From Kribbella turkmenica (GTDB taxonomy: Bacteria; Actinomycetota; Actinomycetes; Propionibacteriales; Kribbellaceae): a stretch of 64,000 bases of DNA. This document shows, piece after piece, positions 22,574 to 48,858 of the stretch. The position numbers were made by a program, and so were the translations under genes. Position 1 is the stretch's first letter, and the number at the start of each line of letters is the position of its first letter. The notes under the pieces were generated by a model, which saw nothing but the letters and a program-made list of their open reading frames with translations, did not search any database and was not told the DNA's origin. Location of the stretch: assembly GCF_004348725.1 (NCBI RefSeq), contig NZ_SMKR01000012.1:1-64000 (forward strand), read 5' to 3'.

Positions 22574-22609
22574 CCATCGCGGTACCCGCTCGGCGCACTC
22601 TTCGCCGCA

Positions 22610-25396: not shown

Positions 25397-25615
25397 GACC
25401 TCCTCCAGACACCTCGTTCTCACGCTCGCGGCGGATTCCGTGGCGGGCGACGCCCAGATCTCCCGGAAGGGCATCGATCGGCGCACACCCGTTCAGGCTA
25501 AACCTGGCCGAAGCACCAGTGCATCGGCCAGTGCCTAGTACTGGCGCGATCACGTGCACGGTGAGTGATGGTCGAGTCGTCGGCCCCAGGCGGGTCTGGT
25601 GATCGGAGAACTTCG

Positions 25616-26479: not shown

Positions 26480-26587
26480 GAAGCGTTGCCCGCAGCCGGA
26501 GTCAGTGCCAAAGTGAGACCTGCGCCAGGCTCCGACGTCGCCCCATGCCGAGGCCTCTCTGCCACGGATCAGGACGATGGGGTGGTC

Positions 26588-29374
26588 ATGACTGTCAGCT
26601 CAGGATGGCCGGGCCTCCGTGGACGTCGGTCCGAGTGCGAATCGTTGATCTCACTGCTCAGTGCCGCTCGAAACGGACAAAGCCAGGTCATCGTTCTTAC
26701 TGGCGATGCCGGGATCGGCAAGACGGCCCTGTTGCAGTACCTGCTGGACAACGCCGACGGGTACGGCGTGAGCCGGGCCGCCGGTGTCGAGTCGGAGATG
26801 GAGCTCGCCTTCGCGAGCTTGCACCAGTTGTGTATTCCCTTTCTCGACCGGCTGGATCGGTTGCCGCTTCCGCAGCGGACAGCACTCGACACCACTTTCG
26901 GCCTCGCGTCAGGCCCTCCGCCCGATCGGTTCATCCTCGGGTTAGGCGTGCTCAACCTGCTGAGCTCTGCAGCCGAGGAGCAGCCGCTGCTCTGCGTCAT
27001 CGACGACGCGCAGTGGCTCGACCAGGCATCTGCGCAGACACTGGAGTTCGTCGCCCGGCGGCTTCGCGCGGAGCCCATTGCGATGGCATTCGGTCTCCGT
27101 ACGACGGATGAACAGCCGATACTCACCGCATTACCTCAGTTGCCGGTGCCCGGACTGAACAACCGCGATGCCGCCGGCCTGCTGGATTCGGTGCTGGCCG
27201 GTCGGCTCGACGCCGAGGTCCGGGACCGCTTGGTGTCGGAGTCGCACGGCAACCCGCTCGCCCTGCTCGAGCTCCCGCGCGAATTGGTTTCCGCCGGCCG
27301 GGGGCACAGTGTTGAGAACAGCCCGAGCGCCAGTCTGACCGGTCGCTTGGAGGACGGGTTTCTCCGGAAGCTGGAATCTCTACCGGCCCAGGCCCGGCGA
27401 CTACTGGTCCTCTCGGCCGCCGACCCAGTGGGAGATGTCGACCTGGTACGTCGCGCTGGACAACGACTCGGGATCGGCGACGAGGCGATCTCCGCGGCCG
27501 AATCGACGGGCCTCCTCGAACTGCGTCACAGAGTCGAGTTCAGGCACCCACTCGTGCGGTCGGCCGTCTACCGTGCGGCTGTTCCGGAGGAACGGCGTAC
27601 GGTCCATCAGGCGCTCGCCGATGTCACTGATCCGGTTGGGGACCCGGACCGGCAGGCCTGGCATCGTTCCCGCGCAGCCGCCGGTCCCGACGAATCGGTC
27701 GCGACCGCACTCGTACAGTCAGCCGACCGTGCCCTCGGACGCGGTGGACTTATGGCGGCGGCATCATTCCTCGAAGCTGCCGCGACGCTCACACCTGAAC
27801 CCGATCACCGAGCGCAGCGATCGCTGGCAGCCGCGCAAGCAAAGATGACGGCGGGTGTTTTCGACGACGCTCTGTCATTGCTCGCCGAGGCACAGGCCGG
27901 GCCGCTCGTCGAGACAGAGAGTGCGCGGGTGGACTTGCTGCAGGCGCAGATCTCCCATTACTCGGAAGGCGGAAACAAAGGGCTCCCGCTACTCCTCGCT
28001 GCCGCTGCCCGACTCGAGCCGCTCGACCCGAAGCTCGCCCGGGAGACATACCTCGACGCCTTCGCCGCGGCCATGTTCGCCGGCCGGCTCGCATCCGGAT
28101 CCGGCATCGGCATGCGGCAAGTCGCCGAAGCCATCCGCGAGATTCAACTTCCGGCAGCGGCCGGCAAGTCCGATGTGATGCTGCAAGGGATCGGGGTGCT
28201 CTACACCGAGGGCTACGCGGCGGCGGCTCCCGGACTGCTCGATACCGTGCGCGCGTTCGGTTCCGACGAACTCACCATGGACGAGTCCGTGCGCTTCGCC
28301 TGGCTCGCGGCCTGCGCGGCGTGTGATCTCTTCGACGACGACAACTGGGACGTCCTCACCCGAAGACACCTGGCTGCAATTCGCGAGATCGGTGCCTTGA
28401 GCGTGCTGCCGGTCGCCCTCAACAGCCGCATCATCTACGACCTGTACAGCGGCGACTTGGCCGAGGCGGAGGCCTTGGTCGCCGAATGCGCCTGGGTCGC
28501 CGAGGTGACCGGAGGGCAGAACACGATGATGCCGTACGGCGAGGTCTGCCTCAGCGCCATCCGCGGCGACGCAGGACGGGCGGAACCGCGCTTCCGCAAA
28601 CTGCTCGACGATGTCACAGCGCGCGGTGAAGGGGTGGGCCTGAACATGATCGGCTGGTTCCAGGCTGTCATGTTCAGCGGCCTGGGCCGCCACGCGGAAG
28701 CGTTGACCGCTGCCCGGCTGGCCGCCGACTCACCACTCGAACTCGGGCCACCGAAGTGGGCTCTCGCCGAAGTCGTCGAGGCGGGCGTGCACAGCGAGAA
28801 CACCGCGGAAGCTACGGTGGCATTCGAACAGCTCTCGTCCTTCACCCAGGCCAGCAGCACCGACGCGGCATTAGGAGTCGAGGCCGGCCGGAAAGCTCTA
28901 CTGTGCTCGGGCCGCGCGGCGGAAGACTGCTATCGAGAAGAAGCCGAGAGGCTGGCGCGTACGACGCTCCAAGTCGAGCGCGCCCGAGCTCAGCTCCGGT
29001 ACGGCGAATGGCTGCGACGTGAGAACCGTCGCGGGGACGCACGCACTCAGTTGCGCCTTGCGTTCGAGACGTTCAGCACGATGGGTCTCGGCGGATTCGC
29101 CGAGCGTGCACGCCAAGAACTCGCCGCGACAGGCGAGACTGTTCGCCGACGAACGGTCGAATCGACCCGGAATCTCACCGCGCAGGAGACGCACATCGCC
29201 CGGCTCGCGGTAGAAGGTCTGACCAACTCCGAAATCGGCGACGCACTCTTCCTCAGCGCCCGGACGGTGGAATGGCATCTGCGCAAGGTTTACACCAAGC
29301 TCGGCGTCCAAACCCGCAGAGACTTACGTCAGTCCCTACCGGAGCCGGCGGAAGCCTCGACGAAAACACCCTGA
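26588..29374 (+). CDS. LAL-type AAA-LuxR transcriptional regulator (copy 2)
   Basis: This 928-aa paralogue of the regulator at 22610-25396 is similar throughout: Walker A GDAGIGKT (39-46), Walker B LLCVIDDAQWLDQAS, sensor-like SHGNPLALLELPRELV, a helical middle, and LuxR HTH (LTAQETHIARLAVEGLTNSE then LFLSARTVEWHLRKVYTKL). ATG 26588 is behind GGGGTGG; the frame extends to 26486 without similarity. It lies 108 bases after the crotonase stop and may be co-transcribed. The pair probably arose by duplication. Confidence 0.9.
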   Translation: MTVSSGWPGLRGRRSECESLISLLSAARNGQSQVIVLTGDAGIGKTALLQYLLDNADGYGVSRAAGVESEMELAFASLHQLCIPFLDRLDRLPLPQRTALDTTFGLASGPPPDRFILGLGVLNLLSSAAEEQPLLCVIDDAQWLDQASAQTLEFVARRLRAEPIAMAFGLRTTDEQPILTALPQLPVPGLNNRDAAGLLDSVLAGRLDAEVRDRLVSESHGNPLALLELPRELVSAGRGHSVENSPSASLTGRLEDGFLRKLESLPAQARRLLVLSAADPVGDVDLVRRAGQRLGIGDEAISAAESTGLLELRHRVEFRHPLVRSAVYRAAVPEERRTVHQALADVTDPVGDPDRQAWHRSRAAAGPDESVATALVQSADRALGRGGLMAAASFLEAAATLTPEPDHRAQRSLAAAQAKMTAGVFDDALSLLAEAQAGPLVETESARVDLLQAQISHYSEGGNKGLPLLLAAAARLEPLDPKLARETYLDAFAAAMFAGRLASGSGIGMRQVAEAIREIQLPAAAGKSDVMLQGIGVLYTEGYAAAAPGLLDTVRAFGSDELTMDESVRFAWLAACAACDLFDDDNWDVLTRRHLAAIREIGALSVLPVALNSRIIYDLYSGDLAEAEALVAECAWVAEVTGGQNTMMPYGEVCLSAIRGDAGRAEPRFRKLLDDVTARGEGVGLNMIGWFQAVMFSGLGRHAEALTAARLAADSPLELGPPKWALAEVVEAGVHSENTAEATVAFEQLSSFTQASSTDAALGVEAGRKALLCSGRAAEDCYREEAERLARTTLQVERARAQLRYGEWLRRENRRGDARTQLRLAFETFSTMGLGGFAERARQELAATGETVRRRTVESTRNLTAQETHIARLAVEGLTNSEIGDALFLSARTVEWHLRKVYTKLGVQTRRDLRQSLPEPAEASTKTP

Positions 29375-29381
29375 TCGCTCG

Positions 29382-29424
29382 CCGCCCGGTCTGCGCCGGC
29401 TTCGACCAAGGGTTCTGCGGGCGG
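29382..29424. terminator. Possible terminator between LAL copy 2 and DUF2630
   Basis: CCGCCCG (29382-29388) can pair with CGGGCGG (29418-29424) around a 29-base loop. It lies right between the convergent ends of the two genes. The stem is short, so confidence is low. Confidence 0.35.
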
Positions 29425-29673
29425 TCATTGGAGGTAGCGCTCCACCTGGTTGGCGGGACGGACCGCAGCTACGTCGGGGTCACCTCCGGCCGTGCGCAGT
29501 GCGCGCCGCTGCCGGAGCAGGTCCCAGCACTGGTCGAGCTCGACCTCGACCGCCCGCAGTCGTTGGAGCTGCGCCGCCTGATCGCGGGTGCGCTCGGCGG
29601 GGTTCCCGCGCAGGCTGTGTTCCTCGCCGACAAGGCGTCGGATGACGTCGGGGACGGACTCATCGGTACGCAT
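29425..29673 (-). CDS. DUF2630 family protein
   Basis: This 82-aa helical protein has IRRLVGEEHSLRGNPAE then RTRDQAAQLQRLRAVEVELD, QCWDLLRQRRALRTAGGDPD and VRPANQVERYLQ. It fits DUF2630, whose members have an EEHxLR start, a long amphipathic helix and QCWDLLRQRRA. Function is unknown; the shape suggests a small coiled-coil protein. It lies 145 bases downstream of the aldehyde dehydrogenase gene on the same strand. Confidence 0.88.
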   Translation of the reverse strand: MRTDESVPDVIRRLVGEEHSLRGNPAERTRDQAAQLQRLRAVEVELDQCWDLLRQRRALRTAGGDPDVAAVRPANQVERYLQ

Positions 29674-29818
29674 GGCATCTCCTGTGGGCCTCGGATTCGG
29701 TTGGTCGTGCGGTGGTAGTCAGCCCGTGGGTCACGCCGGCCGACGGAGCATCGGTCTCGCCGGCCGGCGGAGACGCGGGAACATTCGGCGGAGCTCAGAG
29801 TCCAGACAGGGCGCAGGA

Positions 29819-31252
29819 TCAGCCGGTGTACTGGGCGTAGGTCTTGAACTCCTGGAACTCCTCGAGCGCGCGGATACCGTTGAGCCGGCCGATTCCGCTC
29901 TGGTTGAAGCCGCCCTCCTCGTACTCGTCTACCACGACGGCCCAGGTGTTCGTCCACACCGTGCCCGCGCGAAGCCGGCGACCGATCCGGCGCGGCCGGT
30001 CAACGTCCCGGGTCCACACCGAGGCGGCAAGACCGTACTCGGTGCAGTTGGCCAGCCGGACCGCGTCATCCTCGGACTCGAAGGTCTCGAACGTTGCCAC
30101 CGGTCCGAAGACCTCATGCTGCACGATGTCGAGGTTCGGATCGTCGACGGCAACCAGGGACGGATGGTAGTGCGCACTGCCCGCCTCACGAAGACCGCCA
30201 CGGACCAGCACAGTGCCCTTCTTGCCAGCCTCCTCGACGAGCTCGTCGACACGCTGAGCGTTCGCCGCGTCGATCATCGGTCCCATCTGGCTCTGCGGAT
30301 CATCGCCCGGGCCGACCCGGATGGCGGACAGCGACTCGACCATGCGGTCACGTAGCTCGGCCGCGATGCGCCGCTGGACGAGGATGCGGCTGCCCGTCAT
30401 GCAGAACTGACCGGTGAACGTCGTGATCGCGGCAGTGAGAACGGGCACCGCCGTGTCCAGGTCGGCGTCGTCGAAGACGATCATCGGCGTCTTGCCACCC
30501 AGTTCGAGCGCCAGTCGCTTGAGCCGCGGAGCGGCGTTGGCCATGATCTGGCGGCCGACCTTCGTGCTGCCGGTGTAGCTGAGGACATCGACATCAGGCG
30601 ATGAGACAAGCAGGCGCGCCAAGTCGCTGCCAGACTCGGTGAGCGATGACAGGACGCCGGCGGGCAGGCTCGGGATTTCGCCGAGGAGTCGATGGAACAG
30701 GCCGTTCACCATTCCGGTCTGTGCAGGCATCTTGCTGACCACGGTGCAGCCTGCCGCGAGGGCTGGCGCAAGTGAGCGCACCAACAGGATCACCGGCGAG
30801 TTCCACGGGGTGATGATCCCAGCGACGCCGATCGGCTCGGGCACAGAACTCATGTGCAGACCTGGTGAGACCTCCGAGGCGCGTCCGCCCTGGCTCAGTG
30901 CCAGTGCGGCGTAGTAGTGGAACTTCGGAGCTGCGAGACCGACCTCGAAAGCGGCATCCTTCAAGATCTTGCCGTTCTCGCGGGCAAGCAGCAGGACGAG
31001 TTCGTCCGAGTGGCGCTCGACCGCATCGGCCAGCTCGGTGAGGACGCGATGGCGCAAACGGCGGTCCCTTGCCCAGTCGGTCTGCTCGAAGGCTCGCCGC
31101 GCCGCGGTGATGGCCTGGATTCCCTGCTGGGCATCGGCATCCGCGTAGGTGCCGAGAACCGAGCCGTCAGCCGGACTGACGGACTTGTTCTCGTTCGCAG
31201 AGTCCACAAGTTCTCCGTCGACGTACTGTCGCGCCACTGTCATGGTTGTCAT
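29819..31252 (-). CDS. Aldehyde dehydrogenase family protein
   Basis: This 477-aa NAD(P)-dependent dehydrogenase has Asn151 in IITPWNSP, the cofactor Lys174 in VVSKMPAQT, Glu250 in LALELGGKTP and catalytic Cys284 in FTGQFCMTGSR. It oxidises an aldehyde to the acid; the Gln-Phe-Cys-Met context and the VVSKMPAQ stretch set it apart from the common betaine and benzaldehyde enzymes. ATG 31252 follows CCGGAGGAAGCA; the frame continuing to 31495 is a shadow of the neighbouring gene. The reductase gene ends 38 bases upstream, so the two probably form one transcript. Confidence 0.92.
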   Translation of the reverse strand: MTTMTVARQYVDGELVDSANENKSVSPADGSVLGTYADADAQQGIQAITAARRAFEQTDWARDRRLRHRVLTELADAVERHSDELVLLLARENGKILKDAAFEVGLAAPKFHYYAALALSQGGRASEVSPGLHMSSVPEPIGVAGIITPWNSPVILLVRSLAPALAAGCTVVSKMPAQTGMVNGLFHRLLGEIPSLPAGVLSSLTESGSDLARLLVSSPDVDVLSYTGSTKVGRQIMANAAPRLKRLALELGGKTPMIVFDDADLDTAVPVLTAAITTFTGQFCMTGSRILVQRRIAAELRDRMVESLSAIRVGPGDDPQSQMGPMIDAANAQRVDELVEEAGKKGTVLVRGGLREAGSAHYHPSLVAVDDPNLDIVQHEVFGPVATFETFESEDDAVRLANCTEYGLAASVWTRDVDRPRRIGRRLRAGTVWTNTWAVVVDEYEEGGFNQSGIGRLNGIRALEEFQEFKTYAQYTG

Positions 31253-31290
31253 TGCTTCCTCCGGATCATCCTTCTGTTTGGCCGGCTGGC

Positions 31291-32220
31291 TCAGCCGAAG
31301 AGCTTTCGGAATCCGTCCCGCCATGACGGATAGTCCGGGGCGAAGCCCAGCTCCGCCTTCGCCTTGGCGTTGCTGGCCGCCGGGAGGTGATTGCCGTAGT
31401 ACACGGCCTGGACGCCGATCTGCTCCTCGGCCTCCTCCTCCGAGATCCGGCGCGGCCGCGGGGCATCCAGGAGCTGGGCCAAGTACGGCAGCCAATCGGA
31501 TTGGGGAGCAGGTTCGTCGTCCACGACGTTGTAGATGCCCGGGCCACCGCGGTCTACGGCTGCCACGGTGACCGATGCCGCGTCACGGACATGAACGAAC
31601 GGGTACTGCCCGGCGCCGTCGCCGACGATCGGCATCTCGCCCGCCGTGACCGCCGTGACGATGTCTCCACCAGGACCGATCGCAGTGCCCTCGCCGTACA
31701 GGAATCCGTACCGAAGAACCACGCCTTCGATGCCCGGAGTGTCCAGCACCAGGTTCTCGGCCGCGATGTTGGCCTTGACGTGCTCTCCGATCGGCCCCGG
31801 ACCGTCCAGGTACGGCGGCGCCGACTCGTCCGTCGTACCTGAGCCGGGCTGGATCATGAAGCTGGCGCTCTGCGCGACGACCCTCAGACTGCCGGCCTCA
31901 CGGGCCGCCTTCATCAGTGCCTTCGTGCCCTCGCGCCGCAGCCGGTTGGTCACAGCCAGCCAGGCACCGTAGTCACGAGACGGCACCGAGAGCGCAGTCA
32001 TCAGGTTGACGATCACCTGCGGCTGGGCCTCGACGATCACTTGGCCGACCTCGATCTCGTCGAGACCGTTCATCAAGACCGGCCGTGCCCCGAGTCCCTC
32101 CACGAGGGAAACGCCCTGATGGCGACGGGTGCTGACGGTGACCTGGTGGCCGCGGTCGACCAGCGCCTCGACGACGGGCCGGCCTACAACCCCTGTTCCT
32201 CCTGCGACGAAGACCCGCAT
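31291..32220 (-). CDS. NAD(P)-dependent epimerase/reductase (extended SDR)
   Basis: This 309-aa protein starts MRVFVAGGTGVVGRPVVEAL with the GxxGxxG nucleotide site (8-13 region). It ends in a substrate domain with AGQYPFVHVRDAASVTVAAV and YNVVDDEPAPQSDWL, as in atypical/extended SDR proteins of the NAD-dependent epimerase group; the Tyr-x3-Lys is not obvious. The substrate is unknown. Two in-frame ATGs exist; 32220 is chosen because AAGGGAG lies six bases before it, whereas it abuts the one at 32226. The frame reaches back to 32712 only by reading through a GH15 scrap. Confidence 0.85.
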   Translation of the reverse strand: MRVFVAGGTGVVGRPVVEALVDRGHQVTVSTRRHQGVSLVEGLGARPVLMNGLDEIEVGQVIVEAQPQVIVNLMTALSVPSRDYGAWLAVTNRLRREGTKALMKAAREAGSLRVVAQSASFMIQPGSGTTDESAPPYLDGPGPIGEHVKANIAAENLVLDTPGIEGVVLRYGFLYGEGTAIGPGGDIVTAVTAGEMPIVGDGAGQYPFVHVRDAASVTVAAVDRGGPGIYNVVDDEPAPQSDWLPYLAQLLDAPRPRRISEEEAEEQIGVQAVYYGNHLPAASNAKAKAELGFAPDYPSWRDGFRKLFG

Positions 32221-32340
32221 GGTCATCTCCCTTGAGTTTCTCGCTGTGCCTGGCAGGTTCATCGTGGGTCGCTCGAGGCGCATCTCGCCCCCGGTGCAGT
32301 CCCTGGTCCTGCAACGGGTCGGCGCAACTACGGGCCGGAT

Positions 32341-32601
32341 AGCTGCGGCGTTCCCGACCCGGACGGGCCTCGAGCTTGCATACCCGGGTAGCCAGTCGAG
32401 CGTCTGCTCGGGGATGTGATCGGTCCCGCCGACGGCGTACATGATCTGCAGGTCCGAAGGATTGTCGATCACGCTACGCACCAGGCAGTCGCGCCAGGCC
32501 TCGGCCTCTGCGAGGAAACCACTGGCGAGAAACGCCTTGAGGGTGAAGGTTGCGGTCAACCGGCTGATCCATTCGGTCCAGAACGCCTCTTTGTCAACGA
32601 G
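32341..32601 (-). pseudogene. Internal fragment of a glycoside hydrolase family 15 enzyme
   Basis: About 87 residues in one frame match the middle of GH15 glucoamylase/trehalase-like enzymes: LKAFLASGFLAEAEAWRDCL, PSDLQIMYAVGGTDHIPEQT, then LDWLPGYASSRPVRVGNAA. In intact enzymes of about 600 aa this region holds a substrate-binding loop (WLPGY-x-GSRPVRIGNAA). Both ends are missing: it starts after VDKEAFWTEW and stops right after GNAA. It lies just upstream of, and in frame with, the reductase gene. Confidence 0.75.
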
Positions 32602-32795
32602 GACGGCGCTGGCTGCTGGAGCGGCTCGACCGGCCGCGTCGCCGCGGCAAAACCGCAAACACGGGCCGGAACGGTGTGCCCGTGAACCAGGGAGGGGACC
32701 AGGGAAGCCCACGGGCGCAACGGATGGCGGAGAGCACCACTCTCAGAGAGGACGACAGACCACAGCGGATCTGTCCCTTTCGAAGGAGTCCCTCC

Positions 32796-33911
32796 ATGAG
32801 CACCTCTCCCTCAGATCCGCCCACGAAGGTCGTCAGCGACGTGTCGCAATCCCACGCGGTCCGGCGCCCCTTCTCGCGCCGTCGATTCGTCGGCACTGCC
32901 GCGGCAGCTACCGGGGTGTCACTGCTCGGCGGGCTGGCGACATCCACCGCCTCCGCAGCGCCGAAGCGGTTGCTGGACGGCATCGGCTCGGTCTCCACCG
33001 CTCCGAGGCTCCCGGCCGGTTTCACCAGGACCTTCAGGAGCCGGTTCATCGAGGCCAACGGCGTCCGCCAGCACGCGGTCATCGGCGGTGACGGTCCCCC
33101 GCTGCTGTTGGTGCACGGCTGGCCGGAGAACTGGTTCGCCTGGCGCTTCCTGATGCCGGCGCTGGCTCGCGACTTCACTGTCATCGCCGTCGACCAGCGC
33201 GGTATCGGGCTGACTGAAAAGACCCGCGACGGGTACGACACAGCTACTTTGGCCGACGACCTGGCCGCACTCATGACCGAACTCGGCCACCAGCAGTTCG
33301 CTGTGGTCGGTCACGACACCGGCTACATCATCGGCTACGCGCTCGCCGCCGACCACCGCGACCGGGTCAGCCGTTTGGTCGTCGCTGAGATCCCCGGACC
33401 ACCGGGAGTTGTAGACCCCGAGCACGCCCCGCCACCCTTGTTCCTTCCCGAGTTCCTCAACAACAGGCTCTGGCACATCCCATTCAACCGCGTCAACGAC
33501 GAGCTGATCGTCGACATGGTTAGAAGCAACGCCGACGCCTTCTACCGCTACGAGTTCACCGTTCAGGGCGGTGGAGCGACGCTGCCGGACTACGCCATCG
33601 ACTACTACGTCAGCCTGTACAACCGCGACCGGAACGCCCTGCGAGCCAGCTTCGGTCTCTATCGTGCATGGGACGCCATCCTGACGCAGAACGGACAACG
33701 CCAGCACACAAAGCTGACGATCCCGGTTCTCGGGATCGGTGGCGAAAACAGCTGGGGTCCTGCCGCGGCAGGGGGCATCAAGCCCGCTGCGAGCGACGTA
33801 CAGACCGCGGTCATCGCCGGCGTCGGGCACTGGGTCGCCGAGCAGGCGCCCGCGCAGATGCTCGAGGTGTTGGGCACGTTCCTGGCCCCGTATCTGAAGG
33901 CCACCGGGTAG
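32796..33911 (+). CDS. Tat-exported alpha/beta hydrolase (epoxide-hydrolase-like)
   Basis: This 371-aa protein opens with a Tat signal (RRPFSRRRFVGTAAAATGVS, cleaved around residue 55 after ASA), so it is exported folded. The catalytic part has HGWPE (108-111, oxyanion), nucleophile Asp174 in VVGHDTGY, a helical cap and catalytic His in GVGHWVAEQAP. An Asp nucleophile and HGWP indicate the epoxide hydrolase/haloalkane dehalogenase group. ATG 32796 has AAGGAG at the right distance; the longer frame from 32676 is not used. It is divergent from the reductase, and the universal stress gene follows by 32 bases. Confidence 0.9.
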   Translation: MSTSPSDPPTKVVSDVSQSHAVRRPFSRRRFVGTAAAATGVSLLGGLATSTASAAPKRLLDGIGSVSTAPRLPAGFTRTFRSRFIEANGVRQHAVIGGDGPPLLLVHGWPENWFAWRFLMPALARDFTVIAVDQRGIGLTEKTRDGYDTATLADDLAALMTELGHQQFAVVGHDTGYIIGYALAADHRDRVSRLVVAEIPGPPGVVDPEHAPPPLFLPEFLNNRLWHIPFNRVNDELIVDMVRSNADAFYRYEFTVQGGGATLPDYAIDYYVSLYNRDRNALRASFGLYRAWDAILTQNGQRQHTKLTIPVLGIGGENSWGPAAAGGIKPAASDVQTAVIAGVGHWVAEQAPAQMLEVLGTFLAPYLKATG

Positions 33912-33943
33912 ACCCCGCATCCTCTGGCCCAAGGGAACCGCTC

Positions 33944-34849
33944 ATGTATCACTTGGACGCACTACGCCGCGAACGGCCTCGAACCACCTCTTTCGTCCTG
34001 GTGGCCGTTGACAGCCCGACGGACGGTGTCGACGCCGTCGCCTGGGCTGCGGCCGAAGCATCGGCTCGGCAGGCGACCCTCCACATTCTGCACGTCATTC
34101 CCTGGGAACCGTTCGGACTTGACTACGTCGGACAGGGCGACGCCGGCGCGTACGACGCCGCCCAGCGATTGCCGGACAAGGCCGCGGAGCGCGCCCGACG
34201 GGTTGCGCCCCACGTCGCGATCACCACCCGGATCCATACCGGCGAGCCCGCCCGCGCTATCGCGCTCGAGGGTGACCGAGCAGACCTGATCGTGCTGGGT
34301 CGCGGCGCCACCTGTCACCCCCGCCGTCGTTCGAGAAGGTCAGTGACCCTGCAGGTCGCCGCCCGGTCGCAGCGGCCCGTCGCCGTGGTTGGCGACGCCG
34401 GGACGCCGCAACCCGGGAGCGCCGCCGGCCGGGTCGTCGCTGTGATGCCCTCCGATCACGATCCAGCACGCGGCATGGGCTGTCCTGGGAGCTGCCTTCA
34501 ACGCTGCTCACCGGCGTGGGATCGGAGTCATTGTGGTTGTCGACGCGCCCGACGCGCCACAGCGGGCGGAACCACCGTCGACGACCTCGTGCGGCAACAC
34601 ATGTACGTCTTCTTCGACATCGATCTGCAACGACAGCCGTTGACTGGTCCACGCGGTTCTCTCTTGACGCACGCATCACGGTCCGCCGCCCTCGTCGTGT
34701 TCGCCGTGCCCGAGAGCCGAGTCGCCCGGTGGCGATGCAGATCCGCCATCGGTCGGCTGCTCCAAACCATCCCGGCCCTCATCACGTTCGTTCACCATCG
34801 CCCCAGTCCTCTGCTGCACAGAACGAGCCCTCTCGGCGGCCCTCGATAA
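33944..34849 (+). CDS. Universal stress protein, two domains, with compensating frameshifts
   Basis: The frame is 301 aa from ATG 33944 (AAGGGAAC upstream). Domain 1 is a normal UspA fold: FVLVAVDSPTDGVDAVAWAA then ADLIVLGRGA, although the G-x2-G-x9-GS nucleotide motif is altered (GRGATCHPRRRSRRSVTLQV). Domain 2 begins GRVVAVMPSDHD, then reads nonsense from about 34458 to 34565, and resumes as VDDLVRQHMYVFFDID then SRSAALVVFAVPES and ITFVHHRP. In the nonsense stretch another frame gives AWAVLGAAFNAAHRRGIGVI then VVVDAPDAP, the missing helix and strand. So two opposite frameshifts keep the ends in frame. Confidence 0.7.
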   Translation: MYHLDALRRERPRTTSFVLVAVDSPTDGVDAVAWAAAEASARQATLHILHVIPWEPFGLDYVGQGDAGAYDAAQRLPDKAAERARRVAPHVAITTRIHTGEPARAIALEGDRADLIVLGRGATCHPRRRSRRSVTLQVAARSQRPVAVVGDAGTPQPGSAAGRVVAVMPSDHDPARGMGCPGSCLQRCSPAWDRSHCGCRRARRATAGGTTVDDLVRQHMYVFFDIDLQRQPLTGPRGSLLTHASRSAALVVFAVPESRVARWRCRSAIGRLLQTIPALITFVHHRPSPLLHRTSPLGGPR

Positions 34850-34911
34850 CTGGCTCCAGCACCGTCCCGACCCATCAGCCGATCGACGCGAACACATCGT
34901 GGGACGACTTG

Positions 34912-35422
34912 ATGCAGAATCACTTCGCACAGATTTACTGGCTCGCCTGCGGCTTGACCTGTGATCGTCATGACGCCTGCGACCTCACCCAGGACGTCTT
35001 CGTTCAGGTCTTCCGCAGCGTGGCGACGTACGCGCCCGGAAACTTCGACGGGTGGCTGTACCGGATCACGGTGAACCTGTTTCGTTCCCAGGTCCGTCGC
35101 GACCGTAGAGTCCGGCTACAGCGATTTCGTGAGGATGTCGTCGACCAGCACACGGCTGGTCGGCAGAACCCGGAGGAACTGCTGGCGGATTCGGATCGTC
35201 GACAACGACAGCCGTGATGCCCTGGCGGACCTGCCTCCCGAATACCGCGTCGCCGTGTTGCTCAGAGACATCGACGGTCTGAGCAACAAGGAGGTCGCGC
35301 CCGTTCTCGACATCAAACCAGGCACCGTTGGCAGCCGCCTGCACCGCGGACGTGCGCGACTGCGCGCTGCCCTTGCCCACCGCGCTCCGCCATTGGCATC
35401 ACGGGGAGGACTTCATGCGTAG
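34912..35422 (+). pseudogene. ECF RNA polymerase sigma factor (SigE-like), frameshifted
   Basis: Region 2 is in one frame: MQNHFAQIYWLACGLTCDRH then CDLTQDVFVQVFRSVATYAP and FDGWLYRITVNLFRSQVRRD, ending at TGA 35215-35217. Region 4 is in the next frame: SRDALADLPPEYRVAVLLRD then LSNKEVAPVLDIKPGTVGSR and LHRGRARLRAAL, ending at TAG 35422. Removing one base near 35193 would join NPEELLADS to IVDNDSRDA and restore the chain. The normal N-terminal ~20 residues before WDDL also lack a start codon in frame; ATG 34912 is the first. Such factors steer stress-response transcription. Its end overlaps the NDH-2 start by 8 bases. Confidence 0.8.
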
Positions 35423-36764
35423 GATCCTGATCGTCGGTGGCGGCTACGCCGGCTTCTACGCGGCGTGGAAACTGGAGAAGAGACTCCGGTCGGGCGACGC
35501 CGAGGTCACTCTCGTGGACCGCCGACCGTACATGACCTATCAGCCCTTCCTCCCCGAAGTGGTGGCTGGTTCGATCGAGGCGCGACACGCAGCGGTGTCG
35601 CATCGGCGTCATCTAAGCCGCACCCGCCTGGTCGCCGGCATGGTGACCGCGATCGATCACGCGCACCGTGTGGTGACGGTGGCGCACGTCGACGGGCACG
35701 GCATCGAACTCGGGTACGACGTCATCGTCGTCACAGCTGGAGCCGTCACCCGCAAATTCGCCGTACCTGGTATCGCCGAGCAGGCGATCGGCCTCAAGAA
35801 CGTCGAAGAGGCCGTTGCCATCCGGGACAAGTTGCTCACCGCGTTCGACCTGGCCTCCGGTCTCGCGCCCGGGCCACGCCGCCGCAAACTGCTCACAGTC
35901 ACCTTCGTCGGCGGCGGATTCACCGGAGTCGAAGGCTTCGGCGAGCTATTGTCACTCGCTACCGCGCTACTCAAGCGCTACCCGGAGGTGAGCCGGGACG
36001 AGCTGCGGTTCCACCTCGTCGAGGCGTCAGGCCGGATCCTGCCCGAAGTCACCGACCGGCCGGGACGCTGGGTGGTGAACTCACTGGAACGGCGCGGTGC
36101 CAGCGTCCACCTGAACACACAGGTGACCTCAACAGTCGGCGGGCACGTTGTGCTCTCTACCGGCGAGGAGTTCGACTCCGAGCTGATCGTGTGGACCACC
36201 GGCAACGGCGTCAATCCCGTCATCGGCAGGCACACCGATCTACCCGTCGACCAACGCGGCCTGATCGTCGTACGGCCCGACCTGCGGGTCGGCACCGACG
36301 ACGACCCCGTGCCCGATGCCTGGGCTGCGGGCGACGACGCCGCGGTGCCCGATCTCGCGTCGCCTGTTCCGGGCGCGCTCACGGTGCCGAACGCCCAGCA
36401 TGCCTACCGGCAGGGGAAACTCCTCGCGCGCAACATCGCCGCCACCCTGAAGGGCAAGCGACCGAGGAAGTACCTCCACCACAGCCTGGGCGCGATCGCG
36501 ACTCTCGGCATCGGCCGCGGCATCTTCCAGTACGGGCGCCTTGTCATCACCGGGTTGCCAGCCTGGCTGATGCACCGGGGCTACCACGTACTGGCCGTCC
36601 CCAGCTGGGAGCGCAAGATCCGGGTCCTCGCGATCTGGCTGACCGCGGCCGTGTTCGGCCGGGACATCGTCTCGCTGGCCTCGGTACAACATCCACGCGC
36701 AGCCTTCGTCACCGGCGGCGAGTCGACCGTTCCGACCGAGAGCGTGTCGCGAACAGCGGAGTAG
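35415..36764 (+). CDS. Type II NADH dehydrogenase-like FAD oxidoreductase
   Basis: This 449-aa protein opens MRRILIVGGGYAGFYAAWKL with the FAD GxGxxG site (8-13). It has a second nucleotide site TVTFVGGGFTGVEGFGEL for NADH, and DAWAAGDDAAVPD for the FAD pyrophosphate. The C-terminal LHHSLGAIATLGIGRGIFQY, YHVLAVPSWERKIRVLAIW tail is the membrane-binding amphipathic region of NDH-2 enzymes. It passes electrons from NADH to quinone without pumping protons. GGGGAGG lies 6 bases upstream of ATG 35415, which sits inside the end of the sigma-factor gene, implying coupling before that gene decayed. Confidence 0.9.
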   Translation: MRRILIVGGGYAGFYAAWKLEKRLRSGDAEVTLVDRRPYMTYQPFLPEVVAGSIEARHAAVSHRRHLSRTRLVAGMVTAIDHAHRVVTVAHVDGHGIELGYDVIVVTAGAVTRKFAVPGIAEQAIGLKNVEEAVAIRDKLLTAFDLASGLAPGPRRRKLLTVTFVGGGFTGVEGFGELLSLATALLKRYPEVSRDELRFHLVEASGRILPEVTDRPGRWVVNSLERRGASVHLNTQVTSTVGGHVVLSTGEEFDSELIVWTTGNGVNPVIGRHTDLPVDQRGLIVVRPDLRVGTDDDPVPDAWAAGDDAAVPDLASPVPGALTVPNAQHAYRQGKLLARNIAATLKGKRPRKYLHHSLGAIATLGIGRGIFQYGRLVITGLPAWLMHRGYHVLAVPSWERKIRVLAIWLTAAVFGRDIVSLASVQHPRAAFVTGGESTVPTESVSRTAE

Positions 36765-36780
36765 TCGAGGCCGAACTGAC

Positions 36781-36900
36781 CTACCCCAACATGGCGACGA
36801 CCACGAGCACCGCCGCCGTGAGTGGCGCCACCATCAGCCCGAGCCCAATGCCTTGTGCCACGATCCCTGACAGGATCGTGCCGACATAGCCGGAGCCAGG
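36781..36900 (-). pseudogene. Scrap of a DHA2-type MFS transporter
   Basis: The minus strand reads GYVGTILSGIVAQGIGLGLM then VAPLTAAVLVVVAMLG and stop. Drug:H+ antiporter-2 proteins have a helix very like this (LPGIVxFGLGLGLMVAPLTATVLA) in their second half. Here it is cut off on both sides. Only about 35 residues support the call. Confidence 0.5.
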
Positions 36901-36954
36901 CAGCCCTGCGCCAGCCACACCTGAGCGCCTGCGATCAGCGCGACCCAGCGGCCT

Positions 36955-37080
36955 GGGGGAATCGGTCGTGATCAACCCTAACGACTTCGGCGTCACCTGG
37001 AACGCGCTCGAGGGCGGCGTCGTCCTCGTCTCCGAGAAGGTCACCTTGAAGATCGAGTCTCTGTCATCCGGAACGCGTGA
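36955..37080 (+). pseudogene. C-terminal fragment of a YceI family protein
   Basis: ESVVINPNDFGVTWNALEGG then VVLVSEKVTLKIES and stop is nearly the same as the end of the intact YceI gene at 41074-41625 (STVINRKDFGVTWNAMLEGG then GVLVSEKITLEIE). The first ~140 residues are absent. It is followed by a second shared gene, so a two-gene module was duplicated. Confidence 0.8.
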
Positions 37081-37089
37081 TCCTCGGCC

Positions 37090-37404
37090 ATGCACGGCGC
37101 GGATGATGTCGCCGTGTCCGACGGCGAGGCGGTCGCACCGGCGCTCGTGGAGCGGGTGTTGACGGTCGGCGAACTGGTGTACGCCGACGGCGCGACGCAG
37201 GTCTTCGACACCAACGGCGGGACGACATACGTCGAGAACGGTCGACCGACCCAGTGGCACACCGACGGGGACGGCCAGTTCGGCTCATTCTGGCCACCCA
37301 GCCACCGCAACACCTACGACCTGCGCTGGTCGAGGACGGCATCGTCGTCAGGCTCCGCCTCACCGAGCGCCCGTACACGATTCGACGGCCGCTACCGACA
37401 TTGA
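37090..37404 (+). pseudogene. FWPPS-motif hypothetical protein, copy 1, frameshifted end
   Basis: The frame (104 aa) reads VLTVGELVYADGATQVFDTN then GGTTYVENGRPTQWHTDGDG and FGSFWPPSHRNTYDLRW, and then loses sense. One missing base after DLRW (near 37328) hides the natural end VEDGIVVRLRLTERP in the next frame. The intact form would be a small beta-rich protein of unknown function. A second damaged copy is at 41633-41911, also after a YceI gene. ATG 37090 lies 10 bases after the YceI stop. Confidence 0.65.
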
Positions 37405-37524
37405 TCGCGAGCCCCCCGGGCCGAGTAGACCCGGGAGCAGACCAGGGCCTTCCACGGGCGCCCCGTCAAGATCAGAAGAGCAGGCTCAGTGGCGTCACCA
37501 ACCGCATCAGGTCTCGCGAAAGAG

Positions 37525-37605
37525 ATCCTGACCACCTTGCGGCCTGGCAGGTGCCGGACCTCTGCACGACCGAGATCCGTGCGGCCTTCAGATCGCGGCG
37601 CCAAG
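37525..37605 (+). pseudogene. C-terminal scrap of an epoxide hydrolase
   Basis: HLAAWQVPDLCTTEIRAAFR just upstream of the intact epoxide hydrolase matches the last residues of that protein (HFAAWEEPELFTTEVRAAFS). The catalytic His-Phe-Ala-Ala-Trp context is retained apart from H-L. It shows that a second hydrolase gene once stood in tandem and was lost apart from its tail. Confidence 0.72.
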
Positions 37606-37613
37606 GAGGCGAG

Positions 37614-38810
37614 ATGAGCACCACCCTCGACACCACGACCGGGATTCAGTCTTTCCAGGTCGACGTTCCACAGGAGCAGATCGACGACTTGCGCCGGCGC
37701 ATCGCGGCCACGCGCTGGCCCAGCAAGGAACTCGTCGGAGACCGATCGCAGGGCGTGCAGCTGACGACCCTGCAGGAACTCGCCCGCTACTGGACGAGCG
37801 AGTACGACTGGCGCAAGTGCGAGGCCAGACTGAACGCACTACCGCAGTTCACCACCGAGATCGACGGGGTCGAAATCCACTTCGTCCACGTCAGGTCGCG
37901 GCATGAGAACGCGTTGCCGCTGATCATGACCCATGGCTGGCCCGGCTCAGTCATCGAACTACTCGACACAGTCGGCCCGCTCACCGACCCGACCGCTCAC
38001 GGCGGCAAGGCCGAAGACGCATTCCATCTCGTGCTGCCGTCCTTGCCCGGCTACGGTTTCTCTGGCGAGCCAACCGAACTCGGCTGGGAGAACGGCCCCA
38101 TCGCACAAGCCTGGGCGAAGCTCATGGATCGCCTCGGGTACACCCGCTACGTTGCCCAGGGTGGCGATGTCGGTGCCGCGGTCACGGACGCGATGGGGCG
38201 CCAAGGGCCCGACGGGCTGGTGGGAATCCACGTCAACCTGCTTGCGACGGCGCTGGGCATCGTCGATCTGCTGCCGGCCGAGTCCGAGCAGGAACGCGCT
38301 GCGCACGCCGCGCTCAAAACGTTCACCACGGACGGCTTCGGCTACTTCCTGGAGCAGTCCACCCGGCCGCAGACGATTGGCTACTCCCTGCTGGATTCAC
38401 CCATCGGACTGGCGGCGTGGATGCTCGACCATGACACGGACAGCTACTACAAGATCTCTCGCGCGTTCGTCGACGGCGAGCCCGTCGGCAACCTGACCCG
38501 GGACAGCATCCTCGATAACATCACGCTGTACTGGCTGACCGGCACCGGCGCCTCGGCCGCCAGGTGGTACTGGGAGTTCGGACAATTCCTACACGGAGCG
38601 GCCGGCCATGCTCCTCCGCCGGTTTCGGCTCCCGTCGGCTTCACAACGTTCCCGGGCGAAATCTGGGCTGCCCCGCGCAGTTGGGTCGAGACCGTCTACC
38701 CCGGCGTCGCCTACTTCAACGAGGTCGACAGCGGCGGCCACTTCGCCGCCTGGGAGGAGCCGGAGCTCTTCACGACTGAGGTGCGGGCCGCATTCAGTTC
38801 ACTACGGTAG
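37614..38810 (+). CDS. Epoxide hydrolase family protein (with EHN domain)
   Basis: This 398-aa protein has an N-terminal epoxide-hydrolase EHN domain (FQVDVPQEQIDDLRRRIAAT, LQELARYWTSEYDWRKCEAR), oxyanion motif HGWPGS (107-112), nucleophile Asp185 in AQGGDVGAAVT and catalytic His near 376 in GGHFAAWEEPEL. The family opens epoxides to diols, and bacterial members also act on related substrates. AAGGAGG stands before ATG 37614. Immediately upstream is the tail of a former tandem copy; a further fragment lies at 61.9 kb. Confidence 0.92.
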   Translation: MSTTLDTTTGIQSFQVDVPQEQIDDLRRRIAATRWPSKELVGDRSQGVQLTTLQELARYWTSEYDWRKCEARLNALPQFTTEIDGVEIHFVHVRSRHENALPLIMTHGWPGSVIELLDTVGPLTDPTAHGGKAEDAFHLVLPSLPGYGFSGEPTELGWENGPIAQAWAKLMDRLGYTRYVAQGGDVGAAVTDAMGRQGPDGLVGIHVNLLATALGIVDLLPAESEQERAAHAALKTFTTDGFGYFLEQSTRPQTIGYSLLDSPIGLAAWMLDHDTDSYYKISRAFVDGEPVGNLTRDSILDNITLYWLTGTGASAARWYWEFGQFLHGAAGHAPPPVSAPVGFTTFPGEIWAAPRSWVETVYPGVAYFNEVDSGGHFAAWEEPELFTTEVRAAFSSLR

Positions 38811-38925
38811 CGGCAACACGGCCGATGCCCTCCTGCACCGCCGCGATCCGTCTGGCGCAACGGGGGCGCGTTGCTTACCCCTGCTGTCACCACGCCGACC
38901 CGACTCCCGCGCTCATGGCAGAAAC

Positions 38926-38948
38926 GCCCGACGGGTACACCGTCGGGC
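38926..38948. terminator. Hairpin after the epoxide hydrolase gene
   Basis: GCCCGACGG (38926-38934) and CCGTCGGGC (38940-38948) form a perfect 9-bp stem with a 5-base loop. It lies 116 bases after the epoxide hydrolase stop. The rest of 38811-39083 holds no recognised gene. Confidence 0.65.
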
Positions 38949-39083
38949 ATCTCCATCGGGAGTCGGGCAAGGCGCCCGTTCATGCCACGCATGGCAATGG
39001 CCGGGCTGTCCACGACCGGACCCGCGAGGGTCTCGCACAGCGCCTGCTCAACTCTGCATCGAACTGATTGTGTTGGAGGAGTT

Positions 39084-39789
39084 ATGCGGTTGACATCGAT
39101 CGGGCGCCCGCTTACAGCCGGGCTCCTGGCCATTCTCCTGGTCGTTGCAGCGGCCATCTACGTTGTTGATGACGATGGCGGCAGTGGATCGGGCACCACC
39201 GCACAGACCAGGGGTCGAATCACAATCTGGACGTCGAACAACGCCGAGGAGGTGGCCTGGGGCAACCAGATGGTCGCTGCCTGGAACTCGTCTCACTCGG
39301 ACCAGAAGATCACCGCCCAGGAGATTCCAGCCGGCAAGAGTTCCGAAGAGGTCCTCGGTGCGGCCATCACAGCGGGCAACGCGCCCCGCCTGATCTTCAA
39401 CACATCACCCGCGTCGGTATCGCAGTTCCAGAAGCAGGGTGGCCTGGTGGCGCTCGACAGCCTCGATGACGGTACGTCGTATGTCGAGGACCGCAGCGGC
39501 ACGGCCGCCGGGCAGTACAAGTCGAACGATGGCAAGTACTTCCAGCTGCCGTGGAAGTCGAACCCAGTAATGATCTTCTACGACAAGAAGGCCTTCGCAA
39601 AGGCGGGCCTGGATCCGGACAGGCCGGAGCTGGCCACCTACGACCAATTTCTCACCAGCTCGCGGAAGCTGGTCGCGACGCAAGCCGCGAAATTCGCGCC
39701 ACCCATCGCCTGAGGTCAAGAAGGTCGCCGCGTTCTGGCGGACGATGTACGCCGACAAACTCGCGGCCCAGGAGAAGGACGGGCAGTGA
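39084..39789 (+). pseudogene. Extracellular solute-binding protein with internal deletion
   Basis: ATG 39084 (TTGGAGGAG upstream) starts a family-1 sugar-binding protein: a membrane-anchor N-terminus, then RITIWTSNNAEEVAWGNQMV, and FQLPWKSNPVMIFYDKKAFA, GLDPDRPELATYDQFLTSSR. At about 39705 it breaks off and ends at TGA 39711-39713 (209 aa). Another frame then gives the normal C-terminus VKKVAAFWRTMYADKLAAQE to TGA 39787-39789. Intact proteins have about 430 aa, so about 200 residues were deleted and the reading frame lost. No permease genes are next to it. Confidence 0.85.
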
Positions 39790-39858
39790 TGCGAAGAACG
39801 AGCGTTCCGGTCCCTGCCCCCAATGTGGGTAAAGCTCCGGCCCGGCCGTCCACGGTGC

Positions 39859-40890
39859 TCATGGCTCCGTCCTCGCGATCCGCCGGCCGGCCAGCACCCG
39901 AACGGCAAAGTCGCGAAGAGTGCAACCGAGGATGGCCAGGATTGACACCGTGCAGACAGTCAGGATCAGCCAGGCAACAACCTCCCAACCGTCGAACTCG
40001 AGGCCGGCTGCCCAGCGGACTCCAATGGCGCCCGCTACCGCGAGCGGGAAGGTGAAGACCCAGTGCTGCGAGCTGAACGGCAGCCGCAGGTAGTCGGGCA
40101 CGAAGAAGAGTTGGACCAGCAGGGTGAAAACGGTGACGCCGCCGACCGCCGCCTGCAGATGATCGATCTCGCCGTTCGTGATGGCGAACCATGCGAGGCT
40201 GGCTGTTCCTGGCGGCGACAACAGGATGGAAAGGACGGGCTTGAAGGGCTCCGGAAGCGGTGTACCGAAGAACAGGCGACTGGTGATGACGGCTCCCAGA
40301 AGCAACCAGAAGTAGGTCCCGACGCCGAACACCGCGATGGCCGCGGAGCGGTCGCCCACGGCAACCAGGCCGATGGCGGCGATGAACGGGCCCGCCACCA
40401 CCGGCAGGAAGTAGCCCGGGTGCATCGCGTCCTGCTCCAGCGGCGCGCTGAGCCAGTGCGCCACCAACGCCGCTGCATTGATCGCGAGCGCGGCAACGGC
40501 GACGTAGGTCAGCCACTGAGCGGCTTGGCCGAGGCCGGTCGCGTAGCGCGCGATCAGGAGGATCGCGATCACCGGGACGTAGGCAGTGAGCGGGCCGAAC
40601 AGCGGATGGCGGAGATCCACCTTGAACCCGCCGGAGTCGTTCCGGATAGCGCCGACGACGTACATGCCGGTAAAGGTCGCCCAGACGACGGCGGAGGCCG
40701 CGTACGCCAGGTCGGCGGGTGCCGCTGGCGCGCCGAGGTGCCGGCCCGCCGCCTCCCAGGCACCACCCAGCCCGGCCAGGCCGAGCGGGATCGAGAACAA
40801 GGCGATGGGCAGTACCGAACCCGAGAACCTGGCCGCGTGCTTCGCGGCCGGCGAAACCGATGTCTTCGAAGCTGTGCTTGTGGATGTCAT
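39859..40890 (-). CDS. TDT family transporter (SLAC1/TehA-like)
   Basis: This 343-aa membrane protein has about ten helices: FSGSVLPIALFSIPLGLAGL, HPLFGPLTAYVPVIAILLIA, HPGYFLPVVAGPFIAAIGLV, TYFWLLLGAVITSRLFFGTP and LSPPGTASLAWFAI. These are features of the tellurite-resistance/dicarboxylate transporter (SLAC1) fold, which conducts or exports anions such as tellurite-related species, sulfite, malate or chloride. The substrate here is open. ATG 40890 fits the start of the first helix. It is divergent from YceI across 183 bases. Confidence 0.88.
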   Translation of the reverse strand: MTSTSTASKTSVSPAAKHAARFSGSVLPIALFSIPLGLAGLGGAWEAAGRHLGAPAAPADLAYAASAVVWATFTGMYVVGAIRNDSGGFKVDLRHPLFGPLTAYVPVIAILLIARYATGLGQAAQWLTYVAVAALAINAAALVAHWLSAPLEQDAMHPGYFLPVVAGPFIAAIGLVAVGDRSAAIAVFGVGTYFWLLLGAVITSRLFFGTPLPEPFKPVLSILLSPPGTASLAWFAITNGEIDHLQAAVGGVTVFTLLVQLFFVPDYLRLPFSSQHWVFTFPLAVAGAIGVRWAAGLEFDGWEVVAWLILTVCTVSILAILGCTLRDFAVRVLAGRRIARTEP

Positions 40891-41073
40891 CGTCTCCCAC
40901 TCTCGATTGCCGTACGAGCACGATCGCCGTCGGCGGCCCCGCGACGAACCAGGGAGGCCCCCTGGCTGTGCCCCTGGGCGCGACCCGTGGATCGGCCAGT
41001 GTCTCCTCCGGGCGCGATCGTTGGCCCGACGGAGCCAAGCTGAGACGCAGCCAGCTACCAGCGAGGAGACACC

Positions 41074-41625
41074 ATGAAGACCGCATCAACAGACCTCACC
41101 GGCGAATACACCATCGACACCGCCCATAGCCGCGTCGGCTTCGTTGCCCGGCACGCCATGGTTACCAAGGTGCGAGGATCCTTCAACGATTGGGAGGGCT
41201 CAGCCCACGTCGACGGCGAGAACCCCGCGAACTCCTCGGTGCGGGTCAGCATCCAGGCCAGCAGCATCGACACCCGCAACAGTCAGCGCGACGAGCACCT
41301 GCGCAGCAACGACTTCCTCCACATGAGCATTTACCCGGAGATCACCTTCACGTCGACCGCCGTCGAACAGATTGACGACAGCACCTACCGGGTGACCGGT
41401 GACCTCACCATCCGCGGCGTCACCAAACCGGTCAGGATCGACTTCGAGTACGTCGGTACGGCCGTCGACCCATACGGCAATCGGCGACTCGGTCTAGAGG
41501 GGTCGACCGTGATCAATCGCAAGGACTTCGGCGTCACCTGGAACGCGATGCTAGAGGGCGGCGGCGTCCTCGTCTCCGAAAAGATCACCCTCGAGATCGA
41601 GGTTTCCGCGATCAGGAACGCGTGA
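41074..41625 (+). CDS. YceI family protein
   Basis: This 183-aa protein has GEYTIDTAHSRVGFVARHAM, KVRGSFNDWEGSAHVDG, SNDFLHMSIYPEITFTSTAV, YRVTGDLTIRGVTKPVRIDF and DFGVTWNAMLEGGGVLVSEK, the whole order of a YceI lipocalin-like beta barrel that binds isoprenoid or long-chain lipids. No signal peptide is present, so it is probably cytoplasmic here. It is followed by a damaged FWPPS protein gene. An earlier partial copy of both genes is at 36.96-37.4 kb. Confidence 0.92.
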   Translation: MKTASTDLTGEYTIDTAHSRVGFVARHAMVTKVRGSFNDWEGSAHVDGENPANSSVRVSIQASSIDTRNSQRDEHLRSNDFLHMSIYPEITFTSTAVEQIDDSTYRVTGDLTIRGVTKPVRIDFEYVGTAVDPYGNRRLGLEGSTVINRKDFGVTWNAMLEGGGVLVSEKITLEIEVSAIRNA

Positions 41626-41632
41626 CCCCGGC

Positions 41633-41911
41633 GTGCAGGGCTTGGACGGTGTCGACGCGTCCGACGGCGACCTGGTTGCGGCCGCGCTGGTCCAGCGGGC
41701 GCTGACGGCGGGCGAGTTCGTGTTCCCTGACGGTGCGACGCAGGTCTTCGAGCCCGGCGGCGGGACGACGTACAAAGAGAACGGACGTCCGACCCCCGGC
41801 GAGTGGTACACCGAGAGAGACGGCCGGTTCGGCTAGTTCTGGCCGCCCAGCTACCGCAACACCTACGAGCTCCGCTGGACCGTCGAGAACGCGCCCATCG
41901 TGGGACTCTGA
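41633..41911 (+). pseudogene. FWPPS-motif hypothetical protein, copy 2, premature stop
   Basis: From GTG 41633 it reads LVQRALTAGEFVFPDGATQV then GGTTYKENGRPTPGEWYTER and DGRFG, then an in-frame TAG at 41834-41836, then continues FWPPSYRNTYELRWTVENAP to TGA 41909-41911. Copy 1 has TCA where this copy has TAG, so the stop is probably a mutation. About 92 aa in total. Function unknown. Unlike copy 1, the TAG rather than a frameshift breaks it. Confidence 0.7.
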
Positions 41912-41952
41912 CGTAGTGATGTCCTGGTGGTAGTCGCGAGGCGGGTGGGAGT

Positions 41953-42645
41953 ATGGGCGAGGGGATGGGGCAGCAGCCGTCGCGGCGGCCGCCGGTGTCG
42001 CTGAGTGGGCTTGATATCAGCCGTAACCCGCATGTGCAGTTCCTGGTGACTGAGCACTGGAGTCTGCTCGCTACTCGCGGCATGACGTGGAGTGAAATCT
42101 TCAGCCGGACCGGGACGTACCTGACGGTTCTGTCGGCCGCGGTCATCGCGCTCTCCTTTGTGGCGAACGCGACAGGCTTCGGGTCGGACTTCCGGACGTT
42201 CGCGATGCTGATCCTTCCGGTGGTCCTGCTCATTGGTGTGGGGACCTTCTTCCGGCTGATCGAGGCGGATGTCGAGGACGCCTGGCTGGTGCTCGGGATG
42301 AACCGGTTGCGGCATGCCTACATCGAGCTCGCCCCGGAGCTGGAGCCGTATTTCGTCGCAAGCCATCACGACGACAAACCGGGCCTGATGCAGACGTACG
42401 CTTTTCGAAGCCGGGTCGGTGTCACGCATTGGCTCTCGGGATCGCCGCTCATCGTGGGCGTTGTCGACGCGGTCGTGACTGGCGTGCTTGCCGCGGTTGT
42501 CTGTCAGGCACTGGGCGCGGGCGCCGGGGCGCGTACGGTGATCGGTGTCACCGCCGCTGTCGCAGCGGCTGTGGTGCTCGGAACAATTGGCTACCGGAAG
42601 GTCCATCAGGTTAGCCGCGACTACCACCCGCTGTTCCCCCGCTGA
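41953..42645 (+). CDS. Conserved membrane protein of unknown function
   Basis: This 230-aa protein has a soluble start, then two helices (YLTVLSAAVIALSFVANAT; TFAMLILPVVLLIGVGTFFR), a conserved soluble loop (DVEDAWLVLGMNRLRHAYIE then LAPELEPYFVASHHDDKPGL) and two more helices (SPLIVGVVDAVVTGVLAAVV; VIGVTAAVAAAVVLGTIGYR). I have seen this arrangement in actinobacterial hypothetical proteins but know no function. The GMNRLRHAYIELAP and HHDD stretches look like the functional face. Confidence 0.78.
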   Translation: MGEGMGQQPSRRPPVSLSGLDISRNPHVQFLVTEHWSLLATRGMTWSEIFSRTGTYLTVLSAAVIALSFVANATGFGSDFRTFAMLILPVVLLIGVGTFFRLIEADVEDAWLVLGMNRLRHAYIELAPELEPYFVASHHDDKPGLMQTYAFRSRVGVTHWLSGSPLIVGVVDAVVTGVLAAVVCQALGAGAGARTVIGVTAAVAAAVVLGTIGYRKVHQVSRDYHPLFPR

Positions 42646-42777
42646 TCGCCAACTCTGGTCAGGGCCGGTAGCGGCCGCCGGATCGGGTGCCGGCGCAATC
42701 GGTGAAGCGGACCATGCGCCGAGAGCGTCTCGCGCACGGCGGCCGGACAGCACCCAGTACCCCGCCAACTGCTGGTG

Positions 42778-44382: not shown

Positions 44383-44439
44383 TCATCTCCTCCCAGCCCG
44401 CACACCCAGGACGACATCAGCCGCCCCTTCTCGAGACTA

Positions 44440-44935
<496 letters not shown>

Positions 44936-48829: not shown

Positions 48830-48858
48830 GGCATCACCTCCGGTTCGGTTCGCCGGAA

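Follow-up and report, generated by a model that had tools for sequence, protein, structure and literature searches.

The DNA analysed here, referred to below as the window, comprises 64,000 nucleotides of a Kribbella turkmenica contig and carries a gene for a universal stress protein (Usp)-like product, adjoined by a gene for an ECF sigma factor (Table 1). The main frame of the Usp-like gene runs without a stop over 301 codons, and the Usp profile PF00582 matches residues 18–149 of its product with an E-value of 1.7e-18 (68.0 bits, against a cut-off of 24); the orthologue of the related genome G013 scores 57.1 bits. The window protein is 59% identical to the orthologue of G013 and 58% identical to that of G012, both of which are uninterrupted and 302 residues long. 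Gene order around the G013 gene is that of the window (alpha/beta hydrolase, Usp, ECF sigma factor, pyridine-nucleotide oxidoreductase), and the G012 neighbourhood has the same order.

The gene is present as a single copy in its own genome (351 contigs, 7.45 Mb searched). A search of 38 genomes of the genus with the G013 protein as the query gave seven matches at E 1e-20, located in the window's own genome, G013, G012, G016 (in two pieces), G006, G009 and G019. The copies of the first four, found in 4 of the 38 genomes, were taken as probable orthologues, and the remaining three (35–37% identity to the query) as putative paralogues. Among 342 genomes drawn from the order, with six candidates scored per genome, all six matches at E 1e-25 fell within the same genus. 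A literature search returned no paper on a universal stress protein in Kribbella or on tandem Usp motifs in actinobacteria, and a profile search of solved structures with both intact orthologues (G012, G013) gave no matches up to E 0.01.

Table 1. Features of the window discussed in the text, in window positions.
Feature	Position	Strand	Basis or remark
Usp-like gene, main open frame, 301 aa	33944–34849	+	Open frame; PF00582 match; orthologues
Base present here but absent from G012, G013 and G016; shifted segment begins	34464–34468	+	DNA alignments; interval narrowed by eye
Shifted segment, with the other frame encoding helix 1 of domain 2 and the strand after it	34467–34559	+	Peptide matches, paralogue alignment
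Base absent here but present in G012, G013 and G016; return to the main frame	34557–34567	+	DNA alignments; interval narrowed by eye
ECF sigma-factor gene (region 2, then region 4; start approximate), uncompensated +1 between 35159 and 35191	34849–35422	+	
Partial copy of 41490–41878, with a short out-of-frame stretch at 37325–37365	36949–37396	+	Comparison with G013 and within the window
Gene in three successive frames relative to G013	42751–43438	-	Alpha/beta-hydrolase-like by eye only

Compared with the PF00582 family, the window protein matches the profile in domain 1 and shares the two-domain layout of the paralogues; it differs in that domain 2 of the intact orthologues has no profile match and that both domains lack the ATP motif. 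Searched alone, the last 144 residues of the G013 and G012 proteins gave no listed Usp match at E up to 10, with HMMER filters that drop most matches above about 0.1, and the same residues can be aligned to the second domain of two-domain paralogues. The ATP-binding subclass of Usp proteins is marked by the motif G-2x-G-9x-G-S/T. Read by eye from the alignment, G-2x-G-9x-G-S is visible in the paralogues L016 and L023 and absent from the window protein and from the intact orthologues G012 and G013. The earlier note had regarded an altered nucleotide motif in domain 1 as an additional reason to doubt the function of this copy. The alteration is real, but it adds no such doubt because the intact orthologues are also without the motif, and its absence is best read as a trait of this Usp subfamily rather than damage.

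The same note had described a Usp helix and strand lying in another frame at 34458–34565, with both flanks in the main frame, and had attributed this to two opposite one-base changes. Comparison with the orthologues confirmed the arrangement at approximately 34467–34560, the codon-by-codon borders lying slightly inside the claimed range, and DNA alignments with the relatives bore out the two opposite changes relative to the ancestral frame. In the alignment of four Usp copies (window, G012, G013, G016), the window has an extra base at column 526 (34468) and lacks a base at column 618, after 34559, and it is the only one of the four to carry the pair. Pairwise alignment with G013 resolved three frame runs: 33998–34466 (offset 0), 34468–34564 (+1) and 34565–34627 (0). 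The window gene thus has two cancelling indels, neither divisible by three, relative to an intact relative, which is the definition of a compensatory pair.

Translated from 34455, the segment's own frame reads ITIQHAAWAVLGAAFNAAHRRGIGVIVVVDAPDAPQR. The out-of-frame peptide matched G013 residues 175–207 (67% over 33 amino acids, E 1.3e-14) and G012 residues 176–200 (80% over 25 amino acids, E 3.9e-12), while the main-frame peptide of the same DNA had no significant match to the orthologues (best E 0.55). Smith–Waterman scores against domain 2 of G013 were 123 for the out-of-frame and 21 for the main-frame peptide, the highest of 2000 base shuffles being 43. Aligned with two-domain paralogues, the segment occupies the expected place of the first helix of domain 2 and the strand that follows it, the names of these elements being those we assume from the general Usp fold. 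Across the segment, the main frame encodes 34 residues, including five Cys and seven Arg. Relative to the intact orthologues, 33–34 residues are scrambled, yet no stop interrupts the main frame before the native C-terminus, and the C-terminal part of the protein remains similar to the orthologues.

The G016 orthologue (L004) carries a lesion of its own, an uncompensated +1 in the same domain-2 loop, 19 alignment columns upstream of that in the window. No predicted gene in the 60 kb fetched from G016 matched the window sigma factor or oxidoreductase at 50% identity or above. The position of the G016 lesion bears on a scheme in which ribosomes enter and leave the segment by programmed frameshifting, which would account for a conserved sequence sitting in another frame. 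The hallmark of such a mechanism is a shift conserved at the same place in relatives; G012 and G013 read straight through, and G016 is shifted at a different place. We consider programmed frameshifting very unlikely.

Within the segment, divergence is 20% from G013 and 29% from G012, as compared to 26% and 28–30% in the rest of the gene. Counted against both relatives, the relatives' third codon position accounts for 23 of 44 differences inside the segment and for 218 of 432 outside it (alignment columns 1–520 and 619–880). As third-position differences are equally frequent in the two parts, the shift is either recent or artefactual; the segment would thus have evolved in the ancestral frame for nearly all the time since the species split. 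The codon-position differences of the segment relative to G012 and G013 showed nothing to suggest adaptation in the new frame.

These counts also bear on the idea that selection kept the pair, the second indel having rescued the C-terminal half of the protein and the new segment of 33–34 residues being tolerated or useful. Such a history agrees with the restored net frame, open to a C-terminal part that still resembles the orthologues, and it has documented parallels: Biba, Klink and Bazykin (2022, PMC8935012) report compensatory frameshift pairs in vertebrates and insects, with 624 candidate genes reduced by filtering to six of high confidence, in which the indels are 7–99 nt apart. However, the ancestral frame is still reflected in the segment's differences from the relatives, conserved residues have given way to the Cys- and Arg-containing stretch, and the neighbouring sigma gene has a break that nothing compensates. 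Moreover, by our reasoning, chance alone would give two one-base indels opposite signs in about half of all cases. We regard a selected pair as unlikely. It is very unlikely that the pair exists in the organism, has become fixed in the species and serves a function, with the Cys/Arg-rich segment replacing the helix–strand core of domain 2 and offering a new surface (e.g., a metal- or redox-sensing one).

In the sigma gene, regions 2 and 4 lie in different frames: there is one extra base relative to both G013 and G012, and the first frame stops between the two regions. Together with the Usp pair, this amounts to three frame changes within about 730 bases. A plasmid search gave short partial matches to two plasmid records, both under the sigma gene. 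Further downstream, 36949–37329 is a 78% partial copy of 41490–41878, and the whole of this feature is apparently a remnant. A solute-binding-protein frame at 38871–39713 matches only positions 7–148 of the 307-position SBP_bac_1 profile and is possibly truncated. The piece of the minus-strand three-frame gene that was tried in a Pfam search found no match. Pieces of the stretch between 37.4 and 44.4 kb lie elsewhere or are reordered in the G013 region.

On a larger scale, the contig falls into three parts relative to G013: window positions 1–20000 correspond to 5.19–5.22 Mb and 22000–42000 to about 7.39–7.42 Mb, while 44000–64000 gives mostly short scattered matches. This last part may be an island or a junction. 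The contig measures 67 kb, as compared to about 22 kb for C32 and C34, which flank it in the contig list. At 22613–25414 (minus strand) and 26501–29365 (plus strand) lie two large neighbouring genes in divergent orientation, which are paralogues: the two G013 homologues each match not only their own counterpart but, at about 50% identity, the other gene as well.

Frame changes were surveyed in 91 genes of the assembly by comparison with G013, counting frame runs that spanned 36 bases or more at 60% identity or above. The survey recovered ten frame changes in five genes: two in the Usp gene, one in the sigma gene, two in the partial copy (37051–37425), two in the gene at 43438–42751 and three in a gene of contig L060 (18596–19825, minus strand), where the successive changes lead back to the first frame. 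Broken genes numbered 4 of 16 between 21 and 45 kb of the window, with seven of the ten changes, and none of 19 between 1 and 21 kb. The comparison covered four of 16 control contigs and found 1 of 16 genes broken in L060 and none in L049 (15 genes), L055 (18) or L061 (7). L060 had been selected since an ab initio frame-switch scan had flagged it; L049 had one candidate in that scan, and L055 and L061 had none. The clean stretches (window 1–21 kb, L049, L055 and L061) therefore hold no frame change in 59 genes, and the concentration of breaks in the 21–45 kb stretch argues against a uniform error rate.

As yardsticks, the numbers of broken genes were 0 of 20 for G013 against G012, 1 of 20 for G012 against G013, 3 of 12 for G013 against G016 (including Usp) and 0 of 19 for G012 against G016. 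With G012 as the partner, 1 of 15 genes in the 21–45 kb stretch was flagged, namely the sigma gene; the Usp pair passed unflagged there, although the four-way DNA alignment does show it relative to G012. Counting candidates without a nearby stop, the ab initio scan listed 12 in the 67-kb contig and 19 in 307 kb of control sequence, and, in the relatives, 3 in 80 kb of G013, 5 in 80 kb of G012 and 5 in 60 kb of G016. We preferred the homology comparison because many scan candidates may be overlapping genes. Closer inspection covered L052, L053, L060 and the 43-kb gene; L053 reads as one long frame, and L052 looks broken by eye only.

The ratio of divergence at codon positions 1 and 2 to that at position 3 ranged from 0.37 to 0.55 in the five broken genes, against a median of 0.29 in the other 86 (Mann–Whitney p = 0.001; the broken genes rank 4, 6, 8, 9 and 26 of 91), suggesting that the broken genes are weakly constrained. 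Because weak constraint on Usp is also seen when the intact relatives G012 and G013 are compared with each other, the high ratio of the window gene partly reflects a trait of the family.

The earlier note left the choice between an evolutionary patch and two nearby sequencing errors; both were considered and neither is proved, a third reading, ordinary decay, fitting best. Errors are the main rival, ahead of a selected patch: two close sequencing or assembly errors would have arisen in a locally poor stretch that also hit the sigma gene (35.19 kb), the true gene being a continuous Usp frame. The crowding of three frame changes, the draft state of the assembly and the lack of any trace of evolution in the new frame are all compatible with this, and Antonov et al. 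(2013, PMC3711429) expect singleton frameshifts validated by homology to be sequencing errors rather than genuine indels. Errors would not, however, depend on constraint, as the breaks do; no base run longer than three lies right at either Usp site; the 59 clean genes include the 19 at 1–21 kb of the same contig; and G016, another assembly, is broken in the same loop. Errors are thus conceivable but doubtful as an explanation.

We consider it probable that the indels are real and recent, that they affect a dispensable gene within a rearranged block undergoing decay, and that they compensated each other by chance. An insertion would have struck the loop that follows strand 1 of domain 2 in the source strain, and a deletion about 95 bases downstream would have restored the phase. 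With some 33 codons out of frame, a Cys/Arg-rich peptide would take the place of helix 1 and strand 2 of domain 2. The restoration of the frame would be a matter of chance, two opposite slips having occurred in a gene whose shifted frames stay open over long distances. When the relatives' genes are read one base early starting at the corresponding point, no stop is met for 48 (G013), 309 (G012) and 183 (G016) codons, so no rescue by the second indel has to be assumed. We infer that the indels are present in the DNA of the organism, that domain 2 of the window protein is inactive and that chance rather than selection restored the frame; domain 2 of the Usp-like protein appears to be dispensable.

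Decay is supported by the intact syntenic orthologues in G013 and G012 next to a sigma gene broken without compensation, by the separate lesion in G016, by breaks that cluster in one stretch and track weak constraint, and by the partial duplicate and the half-profile solute-binding-protein frame within the block. Against it, the case comes from one strain and is judged from the assembled sequence of a 351-contig draft, indels in a locally poor stretch would cluster too, the weak constraint on Usp extends to intact relatives, and the lone broken control gene sits in the contig picked after a scan flag. G012 and G013 keep 74% identity over the whole protein, so the protein is not useless everywhere. 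No second strain of the species was found: scans of a named genome collection, which may omit records of the window's own genome or very near ones, gave 55 and 60 pattern stretches, none of them confirmed by tblastn.

For annotation, the case calls for caution, as the main frame would pass as an intact 301-residue stress protein despite the scrambled stretch in domain 2 and the broken sigma neighbour. If the pair were real and functional, it would provide a bacterial compensated frameshift with unshifted relatives in hand, and an instance of protein novelty by compensatory frameshift.

Among known systems, the locus resembles the compensatory pairs of vertebrates and insects (PMC8935012) in having two opposite 1-nt indels about 95 nt apart, inferred by comparison with relatives, and a segment unlike the ancestral one. 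It differs from them in being a single bacterial sequence with one carrier, which would place it in the low-confidence class of that paper, and in having a broken neighbour gene and probably undergoing decay. A second parallel is provided by singleton frame transitions in prokaryotes, which Antonov et al. (PMC3711429) attribute to sequencing error, recent indels, overlapping genes or rare recoding. As in those frameshifted genes and pseudogenes, the frame transition here is validated by homology and occurs in one genome only at the exact place; unlike them, its two changes cancel, and the relative G016 is altered in the same loop. Overall, the window Usp gene is most likely a further, ordinary member of these known kinds, compensatory pairs and singleton frame transitions, rather than an example of a new mechanism.
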